This document shows positions 27,943-36,658 of a DNA stretch of 37,436 nt, piece after piece. Origin of the DNA: Candidatus Methanoplasma porotermitis (lineage in GTDB: Archaea; Thermoplasmatota; Thermoplasmata; Methanomassiliicoccales; Methanomethylophilaceae); the NCBI GenBank assembly GCA_031290095.1, contig JAITOF010000067.1:1-37436 (forward strand). Direction: 5' to 3'. The translations under genes were made by a program, and so were the position numbers. Under the pieces are notes generated by a model. The model was not told the DNA's origin and did no database searches. It was given only the letters and a program-made list of their open reading frames with translations. Numbering within the stretch: position 1 is the first letter of the stretch; every line of letters begins with the position of its first letter.

Positions 27943-29148
27943 TCACGCCGTCCCCTGCTCGGCCTTGGGCTTCGTCGCGTCGACGGCCTCGAGGTCTTCC
28001 ACGAAGTGCGTGCTGTGGTCCACGTCCACTGCAGACGAGTCGTACTGGTCGCCCACGATCGTGTTGAACCATTTGTAGCTCTCGTTGGTCTTGGAGTTGA
28101 ACGGGTTCAGGAGCTCAGGCGTCGTGGGCGAGGTCCACAGGTCGCTGAACTCGGTGGTGAACAGGTCAGAGGCCTTGAACTCGCCCTCGCTTATGAGGCC
28201 GAACTCCACCATGGCGTCTATCCAAGGCTGGATGTCTGCGTTGGTGATGACTCCGTTGTAGCTGAACCAGTGGGGGACCGCGCTGCTCAGGCCGATGGTG
28301 TCGGCGGTGAGCTTCCCGGCTTCCGTCTGGTGGTCGTCGGACCATCTCTGGGCGCCCTTGTAGGCCTTGATGAACTGCCTCACCGAGTCGGGGTGCTCGC
28401 TGATGAACTTCTCCGTGAACACCAGGAGCGACACTCCGGCGTACTGCCCGAGGGTGTCCATGCTGGTGGCTATGACCGTCACGTCGCCGTGCTCCTCCGC
28501 CGCCGCGTAGAACGGCGGGTGCAGGACGGCCACGTCGATGGCCCCGCTCTGGAGGGCCGCCTCTTGGTACGGGTCGGAAAGGACCACGATCTCGAACTGG
28601 CTCAGGTCGTACCCGTAGCTGGTAAGCCACACTTGGACCTCCAGGTCGGCGCAGACGCCTTCCGCCAGCACCGCGACCTTGGGCTTGTGGCCGAGGGTCA
28701 GCAGGTCGGCGATGGAGTTGATGACTTTGCCGTCGTTCCTGGTCTTGTCCACCAGCCAGTGCATGTGCTGCTTGTTGATGTCTCCGTCCAACGGCTCGTA
28801 TCCGCTCATCACGACGCCCTTTACCTTGACCCCTGCCTTAAGCAGGTTGATGATTGTTATGGGGTGTCCGTCGTATATGTCGTCCTGCCCGCTTATGAGG
28901 GCGGCAGGCTGCAGTCCGTAGTCCAAGGCCCCTTGGTCCTGGAAGTCGATGTCGTACGCGTCGAAATATCCTATGTCCGTTCCTACGTAGAACGGTGTCC
29001 CTGTACAGTCCTTGTTCACGTTGGCTTTGACGGTGTACAACCCGGTGGACGACTCCTTGTCCGGCGATGCGACCACCACCAGGACGGCCGCGACCACTAG
29101 GATGGCCACCACGGCCACCGCGATTATTGCTGTTTTTTTCTCTACCAT
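27943..29148 (-). CDS. ABC transporter substrate-binding protein, NMT1/SsuA/TauA-like
   Basis: N-terminal anchor, GTPFYVGTDIGYFDAYDIDFQDQG lobe, downstream of cognate permease/ATPase. Confidence 0.82.
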   Translation of the reverse strand: MVEKKTAIIAVAVVAILVVAAVLVVVASPDKESSTGLYTVKANVNKDCTGTPFYVGTDIGYFDAYDIDFQDQGALDYGLQPAALISGQDDIYDGHPITIINLLKAGVKVKGVVMSGYEPLDGDINKQHMHWLVDKTRNDGKVINSIADLLTLGHKPKVAVLAEGVCADLEVQVWLTSYGYDLSQFEIVVLSDPYQEAALQSGAIDVAVLHPPFYAAAEEHGDVTVIATSMDTLGQYAGVSLLVFTEKFISEHPDSVRQFIKAYKGAQRWSDDHQTEAGKLTADTIGLSSAVPHWFSYNGVITNADIQPWIDAMVEFGLISEGEFKASDLFTTEFSDLWTSPTTPELLNPFNSKTNESYKWFNTIVGDQYDSSAVDVDHSTHFVEDLEAVDATKPKAEQGTA

Positions 29149-31199: not shown

Positions 31200-32129
31200 C
31201 TACGCGTCCGCGCCAGGGACTGCGTACAGGCCTTTGCTGAAGTACCTGTCCCCGCGGTCGGGCAGGATGACGACGACCTCGCCCGCGTCTATGGTCTTTG
31301 ACAGCTCCGTCGCCGCATACAGCGCGGCTCCGGACGAAGAGCCTGCGAATATGCCCTCCTTCCTCGCAAGCTCCCTCGACCATTTGACGGCATCCTCGTC
31401 GTGCACCTTGAACACCAGGTCTATGTACCGCACGTCCATCGTGTCGGCTATGAAGTCGTTGCCGATCCCTTCGATGCAGTACGACCCCTTCTCTCCGCCG
31501 CCGATTATGGACCCGACAGGGTCTGCGAGGACTCCCCTCACGTCGCCGTTCCTCTCCCTGAGGTATCTCATGATCCCGGTGAACGTGCCTCCGCTCCCGG
31601 CTCCCGCCACGAGATGGGTGACGCCCTCGAGGTCTCGGTATATCTCGGGGCCGGTCGTCTCGTAATGCGCACGGGGGTTGCTCGGGTTCCTGAACTGCCT
31701 GAGGCTCACGGAGTCAGGGATCGAATCCAGGAGCTCTTCGGCCTTCTCTTCGGCGCCCAGCATCCCCAGCTCGTAGGGCGTGCTCACTATCTCCGCGCCA
31801 AGGGCGTGCATCAGCGTCAGCTTCTCCACGGAGAACTTCGTCGGGACGACGAAGATCGTCCTGTATCCTCTGCTCAGGGCGGCAAACGCGATGCCCAGGC
31901 CGGTGTTGCCCGCAGTGGCTTCGACGATCACGGAGCCCGGATGCAATATGCCAGACCTCTCTGCGTCGGCCACCATGTACTCTCCGACGCGGTCCTTCAC
32001 GCTTCCAGAGGGGTTGGAGAGCTCCAGCTTGGCGTAGACGTTCACGCCGCTTTTTATCCCTAAGTTCCCAAGCCTCACGAGCGGGGTGTTGCCTACGAGG
32101 CCTTGCATGGAGTCGTACAGCATGTTCAC
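31200..32129 (-). CDS. cysK: PLP-dependent cysteine synthase / cystathionine beta-synthase family
   Basis: LVGNTPLVRLGNL, LSNPSGSVKDRVGEYM, EATAGNTGLGIAFAALSRGY; ends in TAG. Confidence 0.88.
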   Translation of the reverse strand: MNMLYDSMQGLVGNTPLVRLGNLGIKSGVNVYAKLELSNPSGSVKDRVGEYMVADAERSGILHPGSVIVEATAGNTGLGIAFAALSRGYRTIFVVPTKFSVEKLTLMHALGAEIVSTPYELGMLGAEEKAEELLDSIPDSVSLRQFRNPSNPRAHYETTGPEIYRDLEGVTHLVAGAGSGGTFTGIMRYLRERNGDVRGVLADPVGSIIGGGEKGSYCIEGIGNDFIADTMDVRYIDLVFKVHDEDAVKWSRELARKEGIFAGSSSGAALYAATELSKTIDAGEVVVILPDRGDRYFSKGLYAVPGADA

Positions 32130-33280
32130 GCCCGCCTTGACGCTTTGAACGCGCGTTCCAAGTCTTCTATTATGTCGTCCTCGTTCTCTATGCCCACTGA
32201 CAGGCGTATCAGCCCTTCCGTGATGCCGACCCTGTCGCGGATGTCCTTCGGTATGGAGGCGTGGGTCATGCTTGCGGGGTGGCAGAGCAGGGACTCCACG
32301 CCGCCCAGGCTCTCGGCGAGGGCGATCATCTTCGTCGACGATAGGAACACGCGGTGGTCATATCCCTCTTTCAGTTCGAACGATATCATGGCGCCGCCGT
32401 TGGGCGCCTGCCTCCTGTTGACCTCGTACCCTGGGTCGCTCTTCAGCCCGGGGTAGTAGACGCGCGATACCGCCGGATGCTTCGACAGGTGCTCCGCGAC
32501 CGCCTCGGCGTTGCGCACATGGCGGTCCATCCTGACCCCAAGGGTTTTGATCCCCCTTATCAGAAGGAAGGAGTCGAACGGCTGCAGTATGCCGCCGGTG
32601 GCGTTCTGTATGAAATGAAGCCTCTCCGCAAGCTCCTTGTCGTTGACCACTGCGAGACCGGCGACGAGGTCGCTGTGGCCTCCGAGGTATTTAGTCGCGC
32701 TGTGGACGACGACGTCCGCGCCGAGCGCGACGGGCCTCTGGAGGTACGGTGTCATGAAGGTGTTGTCGACTATGGTGTGGATTCCATGCTTTTTTGTCAA
32801 GGCGGCGACAGCCGCGATGTCGGTGACGCTCATAAGAGGGTTGGCGGGACTCTCTATGAGGATCGCCTTCACGTCGGGGGTTATCGACCTCTCCACCTCG
32901 GAAAGGTCGGTCGTGTCGATTATCCCGTAGCCGATGCCGAAGTTCTTGAACACTTTGTCAAGAATCCGGAACGTCCCGCCGTAGACGTTGCTGGAGATCA
33001 AGATTCTGTCTCCCGACTTGTAAAGGCTGAGCACTGCGCCGATGGCGGCCATGCCCGAAGCGAACGCGAAGCCCGCGACTCCCTCTTCGAGCTCGGCGAT
33101 CAGCTTCTCAAGCGCCTCCCTGGTGGGGTTCCCCGTCCTTGAATATTCGTAGCCGAGGTTGTGGCCGAGCCTTGGCTGCCTGTAAGTCGAGGTCTGATAA
33201 ATCGGCACGTTGACGGCGCCCGTCCTCGGGTCCCCGTCCACGCCGCCGTGAATGAGTCTGGTATCGATTCTCTCTGTCAT
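32126..33280 (-). CDS. metB: Trans-sulfuration PLP enzyme (cystathionine gamma-synthase/lyase family)
   Basis: DTRLIHGGVDGDPRTGAVNVPIYQTSTY, SATKYLGGHSDLVAGL; 4-nt overlap with the cysK start; ORF trimmed to MTERID. Confidence 0.9.
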   Translation of the reverse strand: MTERIDTRLIHGGVDGDPRTGAVNVPIYQTSTYRQPRLGHNLGYEYSRTGNPTREALEKLIAELEEGVAGFAFASGMAAIGAVLSLYKSGDRILISSNVYGGTFRILDKVFKNFGIGYGIIDTTDLSEVERSITPDVKAILIESPANPLMSVTDIAAVAALTKKHGIHTIVDNTFMTPYLQRPVALGADVVVHSATKYLGGHSDLVAGLAVVNDKELAERLHFIQNATGGILQPFDSFLLIRGIKTLGVRMDRHVRNAEAVAEHLSKHPAVSRVYYPGLKSDPGYEVNRRQAPNGGAMISFELKEGYDHRVFLSSTKMIALAESLGGVESLLCHPASMTHASIPKDIRDRVGITEGLIRLSVGIENEDDIIEDLERAFKASRRA

Positions 33281-33458
33281 GGGGACCAAGTCCTGCGCCC
33301 GTGATGCAACGTGTCATTCGCGAAAGCGACAAAATACAGCGGACGCGCCGGGACTGTTCCGATTCGGTTCAAGCTCTCCCTGCATGCCCTGTCTCTCCGC
33401 GCCGGAGCGCAACCACACAAGGCAGCGAATGTATTTTAATTTAACTATATCGGAATAG

Positions 33459-33655: not shown

Positions 33656-33691
33656 ACCTTCAACACTGTTTACTTTAAGGATGTGAGCCCC

Positions 33692-35050
33692 ATGGCCAAT
33701 CTGAAAATAATAGCAATTGTCGTGGTGATCGTGCTGGTCATCGCGGGAGTGGGTGTGGTCCTGCTCAGCAACAGCACTGAAAAACGCACCGAGGAGATAA
33801 ACCTCGTCACGGGTCTCGAAGCCGTCGGCTCCGGGATATACTATGATAAAAGCAAAATAGACCCTTCCAACCTGTTCGTCACAGACGCCCACGGGGATGT
33901 CGAGCTCGACTCCAGCGGCAACGTGAAATACCGTGCGGCCGGCTGGAACCAGCTCATAGTCGGCTCGCCTGGTATAATCTCGATTCAACACATCCAGCTG
34001 AAGACGATCGTAGAGATATATCTGAGCGACGCATCCAAGGTCGACGGACCCACTAAGAGCTACAAGCTAGTGGCTTGGACCCAGGGACAGGATCTGAAAG
34101 ACGGCGAGGTAGGTTACGTCGTCACCGGAGGCGGCGCTACAGGGATCATCGGGACCAACGTCAGCGGGCAGAGCCTTGCCATCGGCCTTACCTGGCAGCC
34201 TCAGCTCGTCAAAGTGGATGCAGACCCGAAATACGACGTCCTCGTGAGGACGAACGAGCTGTTCCCCAACCAGACATGCTGCGTCACCATAGCGAACCAG
34301 TCGTTCATCCAGAGCCACCCTGACGTGGCTGAGAGAGTCATCTGGGCGATCGTCCAGGGCGCGGAGTGGCTCAACCAGGCCAAAGAGAAGGGAAAGACCA
34401 ATCCTAACGACGCAGACTATCAGAAACTGCTCCAAATTGGCGCAACCATAGCCGGCCAGAACTTCACGACCGATGACCTGAAGGTTGCCATCGAGGACGT
34501 AGAATATGACTGGGGGGACGTCAATGCCAATGTCAACAGCCCTCTGACCAAGCTCAAATCGGACGTGGCCATCCAGGCAGAAGACCTCTACAGGACCAAG
34601 GACGCGCGCTACAGCGCCAGCGAGCTCGGATTCAGCTCCTACTTGGATTACGCCAACGGACTTGTGGACGACTCAATCCTGAAGAAGGTCCTGAGCAACG
34701 GCATCAGCAACAAGCCCACCTTTGATTCGAGGTACAAGGTCAGGTTCGTGTTCATCGAAGGCGACATACACCAGCTGCCGTTGCACATCGCGAACAACGT
34801 GCTCCCCGGACAGACGCAGAGCTACTTCGACCAGGTCGGCATCGACTTCGAGAGGATCGGCGTCTCGATAGGAAGCGCAGTGGTCGCGGCGTTGAAGGCC
34901 AACGAGGCGGACTTCGGTGTCTCCGGACAGCCCTCCATCATCGTGGACAACATCAACAACAAGCTGACCACGGCCGACACGCTCAAGTCAAGGACGAGCG
35001 CAAACGTCATCGATCCGTTCAACTTCGGGACAGAGGCAGCCAAGGCATGA
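33692..35050 (+). CDS. ABC transporter substrate-binding protein, NMT1/SsuA-like with apparently permuted lobe order
   Basis: N-terminal anchor; WQPQLVKVDADPKYDVLVRTNELFPNQTCCVTIANQSFIQSHPDVAERV (normally C-terminal) precedes YKVRFVFIEGDIHQLPLHIANNVL...ALKANEADFGVSGQPSI (normally N-terminal). Confidence 0.8.
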   Translation: MANLKIIAIVVVIVLVIAGVGVVLLSNSTEKRTEEINLVTGLEAVGSGIYYDKSKIDPSNLFVTDAHGDVELDSSGNVKYRAAGWNQLIVGSPGIISIQHIQLKTIVEIYLSDASKVDGPTKSYKLVAWTQGQDLKDGEVGYVVTGGGATGIIGTNVSGQSLAIGLTWQPQLVKVDADPKYDVLVRTNELFPNQTCCVTIANQSFIQSHPDVAERVIWAIVQGAEWLNQAKEKGKTNPNDADYQKLLQIGATIAGQNFTTDDLKVAIEDVEYDWGDVNANVNSPLTKLKSDVAIQAEDLYRTKDARYSASELGFSSYLDYANGLVDDSILKKVLSNGISNKPTFDSRYKVRFVFIEGDIHQLPLHIANNVLPGQTQSYFDQVGIDFERIGVSIGSAVVAALKANEADFGVSGQPSIIVDNINNKLTTADTLKSRTSANVIDPFNFGTEAAKA

Positions 35051-35054
35051 TAAC

Positions 35055-35879
35055 ATGAGTTCCCTCAAAAGCTCCCTGGGATACGATCGCGACAACAAGG
35101 TCCACAGGATGCTGTGGATGCTGTTCGTCGTCGTCGTGTCCCTGACGGCGCTGGTGCTCATATGGTGGTTCATATCCATCGTAATCGACAGGCCTATGGT
35201 GCCCACGCCTGCGGAGACATGGGGTGCGCTGACCGAGCTCGCCCGCGACGGCGACCCGATGACCGGACGCACCCTGTGGACCTATATAAGGTCCAGTTTC
35301 GGAACCTTTATGAAAGGTTTTGCGCTGGCCTTTGTTGTGGCATTCCCTCTGGGGCTGTTGCTCGGGTACTCCGGCGTGATCCGCGAGTTCGCCACACCCG
35401 CGATAGAGGTCCTGAGGCCCATAGCCCCTGTGGCATGGGCCCCGGTCTTCGTGGTGCTGTTCGGATATCAGATAGGGCCGATGGTGGTCGTGTTCGTGGG
35501 AATATTCTTCCCCCTGCTCACGAGCGTCATCTTTGGCGTCAGGAAGATCGACCCCAATTGGATAGATGCGGCGAAGACGCTCGGAGCGTCGCAGCTGCAG
35601 ATATTCGCCAAGGTCGTTATCCCTGCGTCCATACCATATCTGATGAACGGCGTCAAGGTAGGGCTCGGGATAGGATGGATGTGCATAGTCTCTGCGGAGC
35701 TGTACGCGTCGCCGATAGGCGGCGTCGGGTTCTACATAAGCAACCAGGCTTTCGTAGGGTACTGGCCGGGCGTGTTCGCAGGCATCTTCATAGTGGGGGT
35801 CCTTGGGATAATAACCGTCGGCACGGCAGACTACCTGCACAGAACGCTATCCAAGAGAATGGGAGTTGAAGTCTCATGA
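35055..35879 (+). CDS. ABC transporter permease (SsuC/TauC-like)
   Basis: FVVAFPLGLLLGYSGVIREFATPAIEVLRPIAPVAWAPVFVVLFG; ASIPYLMNGVKVGLGIGWMCIVSAEL. Confidence 0.92.
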   Translation: MSSLKSSLGYDRDNKVHRMLWMLFVVVVSLTALVLIWWFISIVIDRPMVPTPAETWGALTELARDGDPMTGRTLWTYIRSSFGTFMKGFALAFVVAFPLGLLLGYSGVIREFATPAIEVLRPIAPVAWAPVFVVLFGYQIGPMVVVFVGIFFPLLTSVIFGVRKIDPNWIDAAKTLGASQLQIFAKVVIPASIPYLMNGVKVGLGIGWMCIVSAELYASPIGGVGFYISNQAFVGYWPGVFAGIFIVGVLGIITVGTADYLHRTLSKRMGVEVS

Positions 35880-36658
35880 CAGGAGACACATCGGACGAAA
35901 CGCAGATACGCATAGAGGGGCTTGGCAAGACGTACCGTCGCGAACAGAAGGAGACCGTGGTGATCGAGGACCTTAACCTTGAGATAAGGAAAGGAGAGCT
36001 CATCACCTTCGTCGGGCCTTCAGGCTGCGGCAAGACGACTCTCCTGAAGCTGATTGCCGGTCTGATTCCTCCGACGTACGGGACGGTCATGATAGACGGT
36101 CGCACGTGCACGGAGCCGGGAGCGGACCGCGGCATGGTGTTCCAGGACTTCGCTCTGTTCCCTTGGAGGTCCGTGAGGAAGAACGTGGAGTTCGGCCTCG
36201 AGGTCGCCGGCGTCCCAAAGGCGGAGCGCAGGGAGCGTGCGGACAAGTACATCAAGCTGGTCGGCCTCGACAAGTTCGCAGACTCGAGAGTCTACGAGCT
36301 GTCGGGAGGCATGAAGCAGAGGGTGGGCATCGCAAGGGCGCTAGTGGTGAAGCCTGATGTAATACTGATGGACGAGCCGTTCGGCGCGCTGGACGCGCAG
36401 ACCCGCAACATCATGCAAGCCCAGCTTATAGACATCCTGAGCTCCACAGACCAGACGGTGATATTCATCACCCACTCTGTGGACGAGGCGGTGTACCTCT
36501 CCGATAGAATCGTGGTGCAGACGAAACGCCCCACGACGATCAAGGAGATCGTGGACGTCCCTTGGCCAAGGCCCAGGGACCGCTCGACCCCCGAGTTCGT
36601 CGCGCTTAGGAAGAGGATACTCGAGGAGCTGGAGAAAGAGAACGTCATGGAAGACTGA
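35876..36658 (+). CDS. ABC transporter ATP-binding protein (SsuB/TauB-like)
   Basis: GPSGCGKTTLLKLIAGL, LSGGMKQRVGIARAL, VILMDEPFGALDAQTR. Confidence 0.94.
   Translation: MTGDTSDETQIRIEGLGKTYRREQKETVVIEDLNLEIRKGELITFVGPSGCGKTTLLKLIAGLIPPTYGTVMIDGRTCTEPGADRGMVFQDFALFPWRSVRKNVEFGLEVAGVPKAERRERADKYIKLVGLDKFADSRVYELSGGMKQRVGIARALVVKPDVILMDEPFGALDAQTRNIMQAQLIDILSSTDQTVIFITHSVDEAVYLSDRIVVQTKRPTTIKEIVDVPWPRPRDRSTPEFVALRKRILEELEKENVMED

Follow-up and report, generated by a model that had tools for sequence, protein, structure and literature searches.

Our results support a model in which the open reading frame at 33692–35050 (forward strand) of the window, the whole 37,436-nucleotide stretch of Candidatus Methanoplasma porotermitis DNA that was analyzed, very probably encodes the anchored, circularly permuted substrate-binding protein (SBP) of an ABC importer, and in which the family to which it belongs has passed through a series of permutations by tandem duplication, the canonical order being regained at least once. 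The 452-residue product starts at an ATG, with an alternative GTG upstream at 33683. Profiles, segment HMMs and an AlphaFold model describe a type II SBP whose parts occur in the order S2a-S2b-S3-S1, which we call order A. A hydrophobic stretch at residues 5–25 (33704–33766), predicted from sequence to be the N-terminal membrane anchor, is followed by S2a (33797–34015; segment HMM and the motifs EAVGSGIYY and SPGIISIQH), the second piece of canonical proteins and the first in the target; by S2b (34061–34207; segment HMM), which represents lobe II and carries TWQP; and by S3 (34241–34690; Pfam and segment HMM), which comprises the return to lobe I and the C-terminal helices of canonical SBPs, with TCC at 34274–34282. 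S1 (34754–34960), the canonical N-terminal β-α units, comes last, with GDIHQ at 34760–34774 and QPSIIVDNINN at 34928–34960, before a tail of about 21 residues (34985–35047) that the alignment shows to be missing from most relatives and that is modeled mostly with low confidence. The genes for a permease (35055–35879, forward; Pfam BPD_transp_1) and an ATPase (35876–36658, forward; Pfam and operon comparison) complete the operon, the former beginning 4 bases past the target's stop codon and the latter overlapping the former.

The reversed order is visible in profile matches. Positions 10–56 of Pfam NMT1 match target residues 373–419 (E = 2e-5; 24.9 bits, above the gathering cut-off of 20.5), whereas positions 196–243 of NMT1_2 match residues 185–232 (E = 0.013) and positions 156–222 of the NCBIfam SsuA model TIGR01728 match residues 167–233. 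Early positions of the canonical profile thus fall late in the target and later positions fall early, so the canonical N-terminal piece sits at the C-terminus, as the original prediction had proposed for the N-lobe motif. The accompanying label of an SsuA/NMT1-like protein holds for NMT1, but SsuA itself is too specific, the TIGR01728 score of 27.6 being far below the curated cut-off of 163.5. Similarly, the order is reversed as claimed, but the leading part is not simply the second lobe; it consists of lobe II together with the C-terminal part of lobe I, all of it beyond the first N-lobe β-α units. A neighboring SBP (27943–29148, reverse strand), which was used for comparison only and resembles the permuted family's segments only weakly, had been said to be in normal order and is indeed collinear with Pfam (NMT1 5–216 at its residues 51–277). 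A family profile searched against the PDB gave the same picture: its C-terminal part matches the N-termini of Thi5 (chain residues 18–62) and TauA (17–65), and 3qsl is matched in two stretches in reversed order, profile positions 289–345 with chain residues 31–88 and 134–186 with 214–267. A sub-threshold Pfam match to Betaherpes_U91 at the hydrophobic N-terminus of the target was dismissed.

The AlphaFold2 model of residues 29–452 (pLDDT 91.6, pTM 0.89), built from 26 aligned sequences comprising the target and 25 permuted relatives, does not have a sequentially canonical topology. Sequential alignment with VIA-align matched model residues from about 2 or 3 to 314 with residues 138–408 of NrtA (Z = 16.4 over 243 residues) and about the same span with TauA 70–319 (Z = 15.3) and SsuA 75–331 (Z = 13.7), that is, with what comes after the N-terminal part of these canonical proteins. 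Because a sequential alignment cannot hold both parts together, model residues 317–424 are barely covered, with no separate match listed, and the C-terminal part rests on the profiles and on its modeled secondary structure (E320–327, H331–339, H350–353, E356–363, H366–374, E380–384 and H385–394). The structural matches listed for the target are NrtA/TauA/SsuA-like type II proteins, although the list may omit other families. The target thus resembles SBPs of the NMT1/TauA/SsuA/NrtA type (PF09084, PF13379) in its profile score, its two-lobed fold (Z up to 16.4) and its operon with a permease and an ATPase, and differs from them in running S2-S3-S1 instead of S1-S2-S3 and in belonging to a family with two further orders. 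Sequence profiles and the predicted structure together indicate that the target is a true circular permutation of an NMT1/TauA-type SBP.

The permuted order is widely shared. Two paralogues in the target genome have it, as do nearly all of the relatives read in the target's family, where 92 of 102 genomes encode one; in the order as a whole the count is 134 of 147 genomes and in the class 136 of 399, most of the genomes with relatives being MAGs. Such recurrence in paralogues and homologues is far beyond chance. A contig scan with a single protein as the query found no relatives, whereas an alignment query found 28 named loci, in Methanomethylophilaceae and Candidatus Methanoplasma. The beginning of an A-type SBP is also present on a contig assigned to an uncultured Clostridia bacterium (L090:3953–4552, forward), which is probably mis-binned archaeal DNA.

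To compare relatives, we cut the SBP into four segments, S1 (the N-lobe, with GDIHQ), S2a, S2b and S3, iterated HMMs for each and read the order at every locus. With redundant loci counted, order A was read at 65 loci, C (S2b-S3-S1-S2a) at 30 plus a few partial ones, B (S3-S1-S2a-S2b) at 8 and the canonical order (S1-S2a-S2b-S3) at 5, one of them with a weak S2b; together these are all four rotations of four segments, and the family that contains them spans gut and environmental archaea. Order C extends beyond the class, to L127 and L128. Pfam alone recovers the same orders, since L028 and L101 are collinear, the NMT1_2 match of L024 starts only at residue 192, and L104 has NMT1_2 138–244 ahead of NMT1 15–118. 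The breakpoints of all orders fall between segments. That of B can be placed almost exactly: B-type proteins terminate in ...QRVIQES and start with DYVSLGL after the anchor, where canonical L028 reads ...QRVIEESPDYVSLGL. A model of a B-type protein (L089), built from three aligned sequences, was poor (pLDDT 56). All single-unit variants combine one N-terminal anchor with a single copy of each segment in an open frame, and the hydrophobic anchor is present in all 95 distinct family members regardless of segment order, including the five canonical ones.

The transporter genes have stayed in place while the receptor changed. The order SBP-permease-ATPase is kept in all four topologies at nearly all loci with enough sequence, with orthologous permeases 3′ of the SBP in each; both genes were found there at all 5 canonical loci and at 27 C loci, and the apparent exceptions among A, B and the tandem AA form are mostly long frames, read from stop to stop, with a first base farther upstream. 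Between canonical L028 and B-type L024, the permease and ATPase are 91% identical, whereas the four SBP segments are 67% identical.

Tandem double units were also read: six AA loci, of which four are distinct and which include L029–L032, and one CC locus (L048:2731–4923, forward). These in-frame duplicates have only one N-terminal anchor and contain a canonical-order domain across the junction, as in L074, where NMT1_2 19–244 matches residues 325–571. In the first unit of the CC protein, HPCC, GDLHQ and SIQH have become HPGS, GDINQ and SMNY, as would be expected if this unit were a redundant, decaying copy. Other architectures were seen as well. An A-type SBP of 517 residues (L040:3348–4898, reverse) has an extra C-terminal domain that by eye resembles carboxypeptidase-regulatory-like repeats, and a further protein (L131:49–1119, forward) joins a predicted HTH regulator to an NMT1-like domain that carries YPCC and is possibly a one-component sensor of a related ligand.

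Changes of order recur across the phylogeny. A tree of 100 de-permuted SBP units requires seven changes between the four orders. Adding three distant canonical outgroups raises this to eight, on a tree with long outgroup branches and a poorly settled base, where the C clade may have begun as either canonical or C. An independent tree of the permease and ATPase requires six, with two groups of B, as well as L028, placed inside A and with L028 beside L024 (SH-aLRT 96). Both trees require at least six changes, and B arose twice. The SBP tree separates A, B and L028 from C and the other canonical members with full support. With groups named after the first tree, so that the p values are indicative, a single B clade was rejected (p-AU = 3e-77), as was a grouping of L028 with the canonical pair L061 and L101 (p-AU = 5e-5). 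L028 is nested within A and B and so appears to have reverted to canonical; it is the only full-length canonical match without internal stops in the target's family and comes as a single gene from a 61%-complete MAG. Genera g29 and g20 each contain both C and canonical members, and there the changes are therefore also recent. The AA units form their own clade, which is not sister to the B/canonical clade, so that none of the known AA tandems can be identified as a direct precursor; in the CC protein, unit 2 is sister to L117 (order C) and unit 1 falls outside both.

Permutation by tandem duplication is the most likely mechanism. The SBP gene would be duplicated in tandem and the outer parts then lost, giving new start and end points in loops while a single N-terminal anchor is kept; in the target, S1, which forms the N-terminal part of lobe I in canonical proteins, has shifted to the C-terminus and a linker joins the old termini. 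An AA protein could become B or canonical by loss of the segments behind the anchor and an early stop, and repeated rounds would yield the three permuted orders and, on at least one occasion, the canonical one again, so that the target's permutation would be one step of a series in an archaeal family. Under this mechanism tandem intermediates are expected to be viable (PMC3320104), and the AA and CC fusions are of that kind. It would be compatible with this mechanism if the changes were also adaptive, each one moving the anchor elsewhere on the receptor and thereby altering docking or reach. All members are N-terminally anchored, so every permutation shifts the anchor, and tethering has been proposed as a possible reason for the permutation of Treponema pallidum Tp0684/MglB-2, the "Type Ic" glucose-binding SBP related to type I (PMC4990184). 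However, canonical members of the family also carry the anchor, which means that tethering cannot by itself account for a change of order, and since orthologous permeases lie beside all orders, no single topology is required by it. Neutral drift explains the data equally well, and we regard selection on anchor position as somewhat doubtful. Fission of the gene and re-fusion in other orders, without tandem duplication, would likewise give circular permutants (PMC3320104). Among the loci read, however, there were no stand-alone half genes, which makes this route less likely; the four distinct AA tandems and the CC tandem are present, and the altered motifs of CC unit 1 fit a redundant copy. Fission and re-fusion is accordingly improbable next to tandem duplication.

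The target is most likely the receptor of the adjoining importer, and we infer that the permuted chain should still fold as a normal two-lobed flytrap that would close on its ligand, dock on the permease and deliver to the permease and ATPase. GD.HQ, GS, PG...Q, WEP or WQP, and CC are kept in both the A and C groups, which suggests one putative ligand site. The target has NQTCC (34265–34282) in place of the GHTCC of most relatives, possibly reflecting a changed ligand. To name a sulfonate, a thiamine precursor, a metal or a thiol as the ligand would be guesswork. Divergent cysteine synthase-like and cystathionine γ-lyase-like genes lie upstream of the operon (31200–33289, reverse), and a link of the ligand to sulfur is possible. 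Coenzyme M was considered because strain ISO4-H5 lacks its synthesis (PMC5011839); as a ligand it is unsupported, for other members of the order have the synthesis genes (PMC4153887) and the SBP family occurs almost throughout the order. Conserved non-transporter neighbors (Elp3, RamA, CobW and thioredoxin) differ between clades and point to no ligand. One relative from another family of the same order (L111:1672–4437, reverse; 922 residues) joins a C-type SBP to roughly four fn3 repeats, with a hydrophobic segment at the C-terminus, has CC altered to GYPSEV and GDLHQ to GDLQQ, and has no permease match downstream within the fetched stretch. It lends some credence to the idea that the target has left transport to act as a surface sensor or binding protein, but in the target and most relatives the genes for a permease and an ATPase directly follow that for the SBP, and we consider this very improbable. 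That the order is an assembly or tandem-fusion artifact is refuted for the family, for although the target genome is in 97 contigs and tandem fusions exist among relatives, the order is common to the target's two paralogues and to homologues in more than 90 independent assemblies, several of them single-contig, and each single-unit variant retains the one-anchor, one-copy, open-frame structure described above.

Permuted SBPs are already known; what appears new here is serial permutation within an SBP family, of which we found no report in the open-access literature. Like the target, MglB-2 is a tethered ABC-type binding protein with a circular permutation that is natural and conserved, but it has a glucose/galactose-type type I fold with one permuted topology described, whereas the target family is of the NMT1/TauA type (type II), with four orders and tandem forms. 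The motif orders of DNA methyltransferases reflect deep divergence among enzyme classes. In contrast, the target family changes order among loci with 91% identical transporter subunits. The methyltransferases do offer a precedent in which a single fold occurs in several motif orders and duplication intermediates are documented, and the saposin/swaposin permutation has also been attributed to tandem duplication (PMC3320104). The latter is one permutation, for which that paper describes neither a series nor a return; the target family has a series and an apparent return.

Natural circular permutations are usually viewed as single, ancient, finished events. Close relatives with four orders, one operon, double-length intermediates and an apparent canonical return make the steps of permutation and their fitness cost directly testable. 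The same family is a ready-made set of natural flytrap permutants for biosensor design, and it illustrates that annotation by sequential alignment misses or shortens permuted SBPs, the NMT1 match of the target being only 47 residues long. More speculatively, and at somewhat less than even odds in our judgment, the receptor gene of one Thermoplasmatota ABC importer may be a permutation hotspot, in which repeated tandem duplication has generated every cyclic order including the canonical one and each time attached the anchor to a different lobe or hinge, such that receptor topology would be a freely evolving, and possibly selected, trait.
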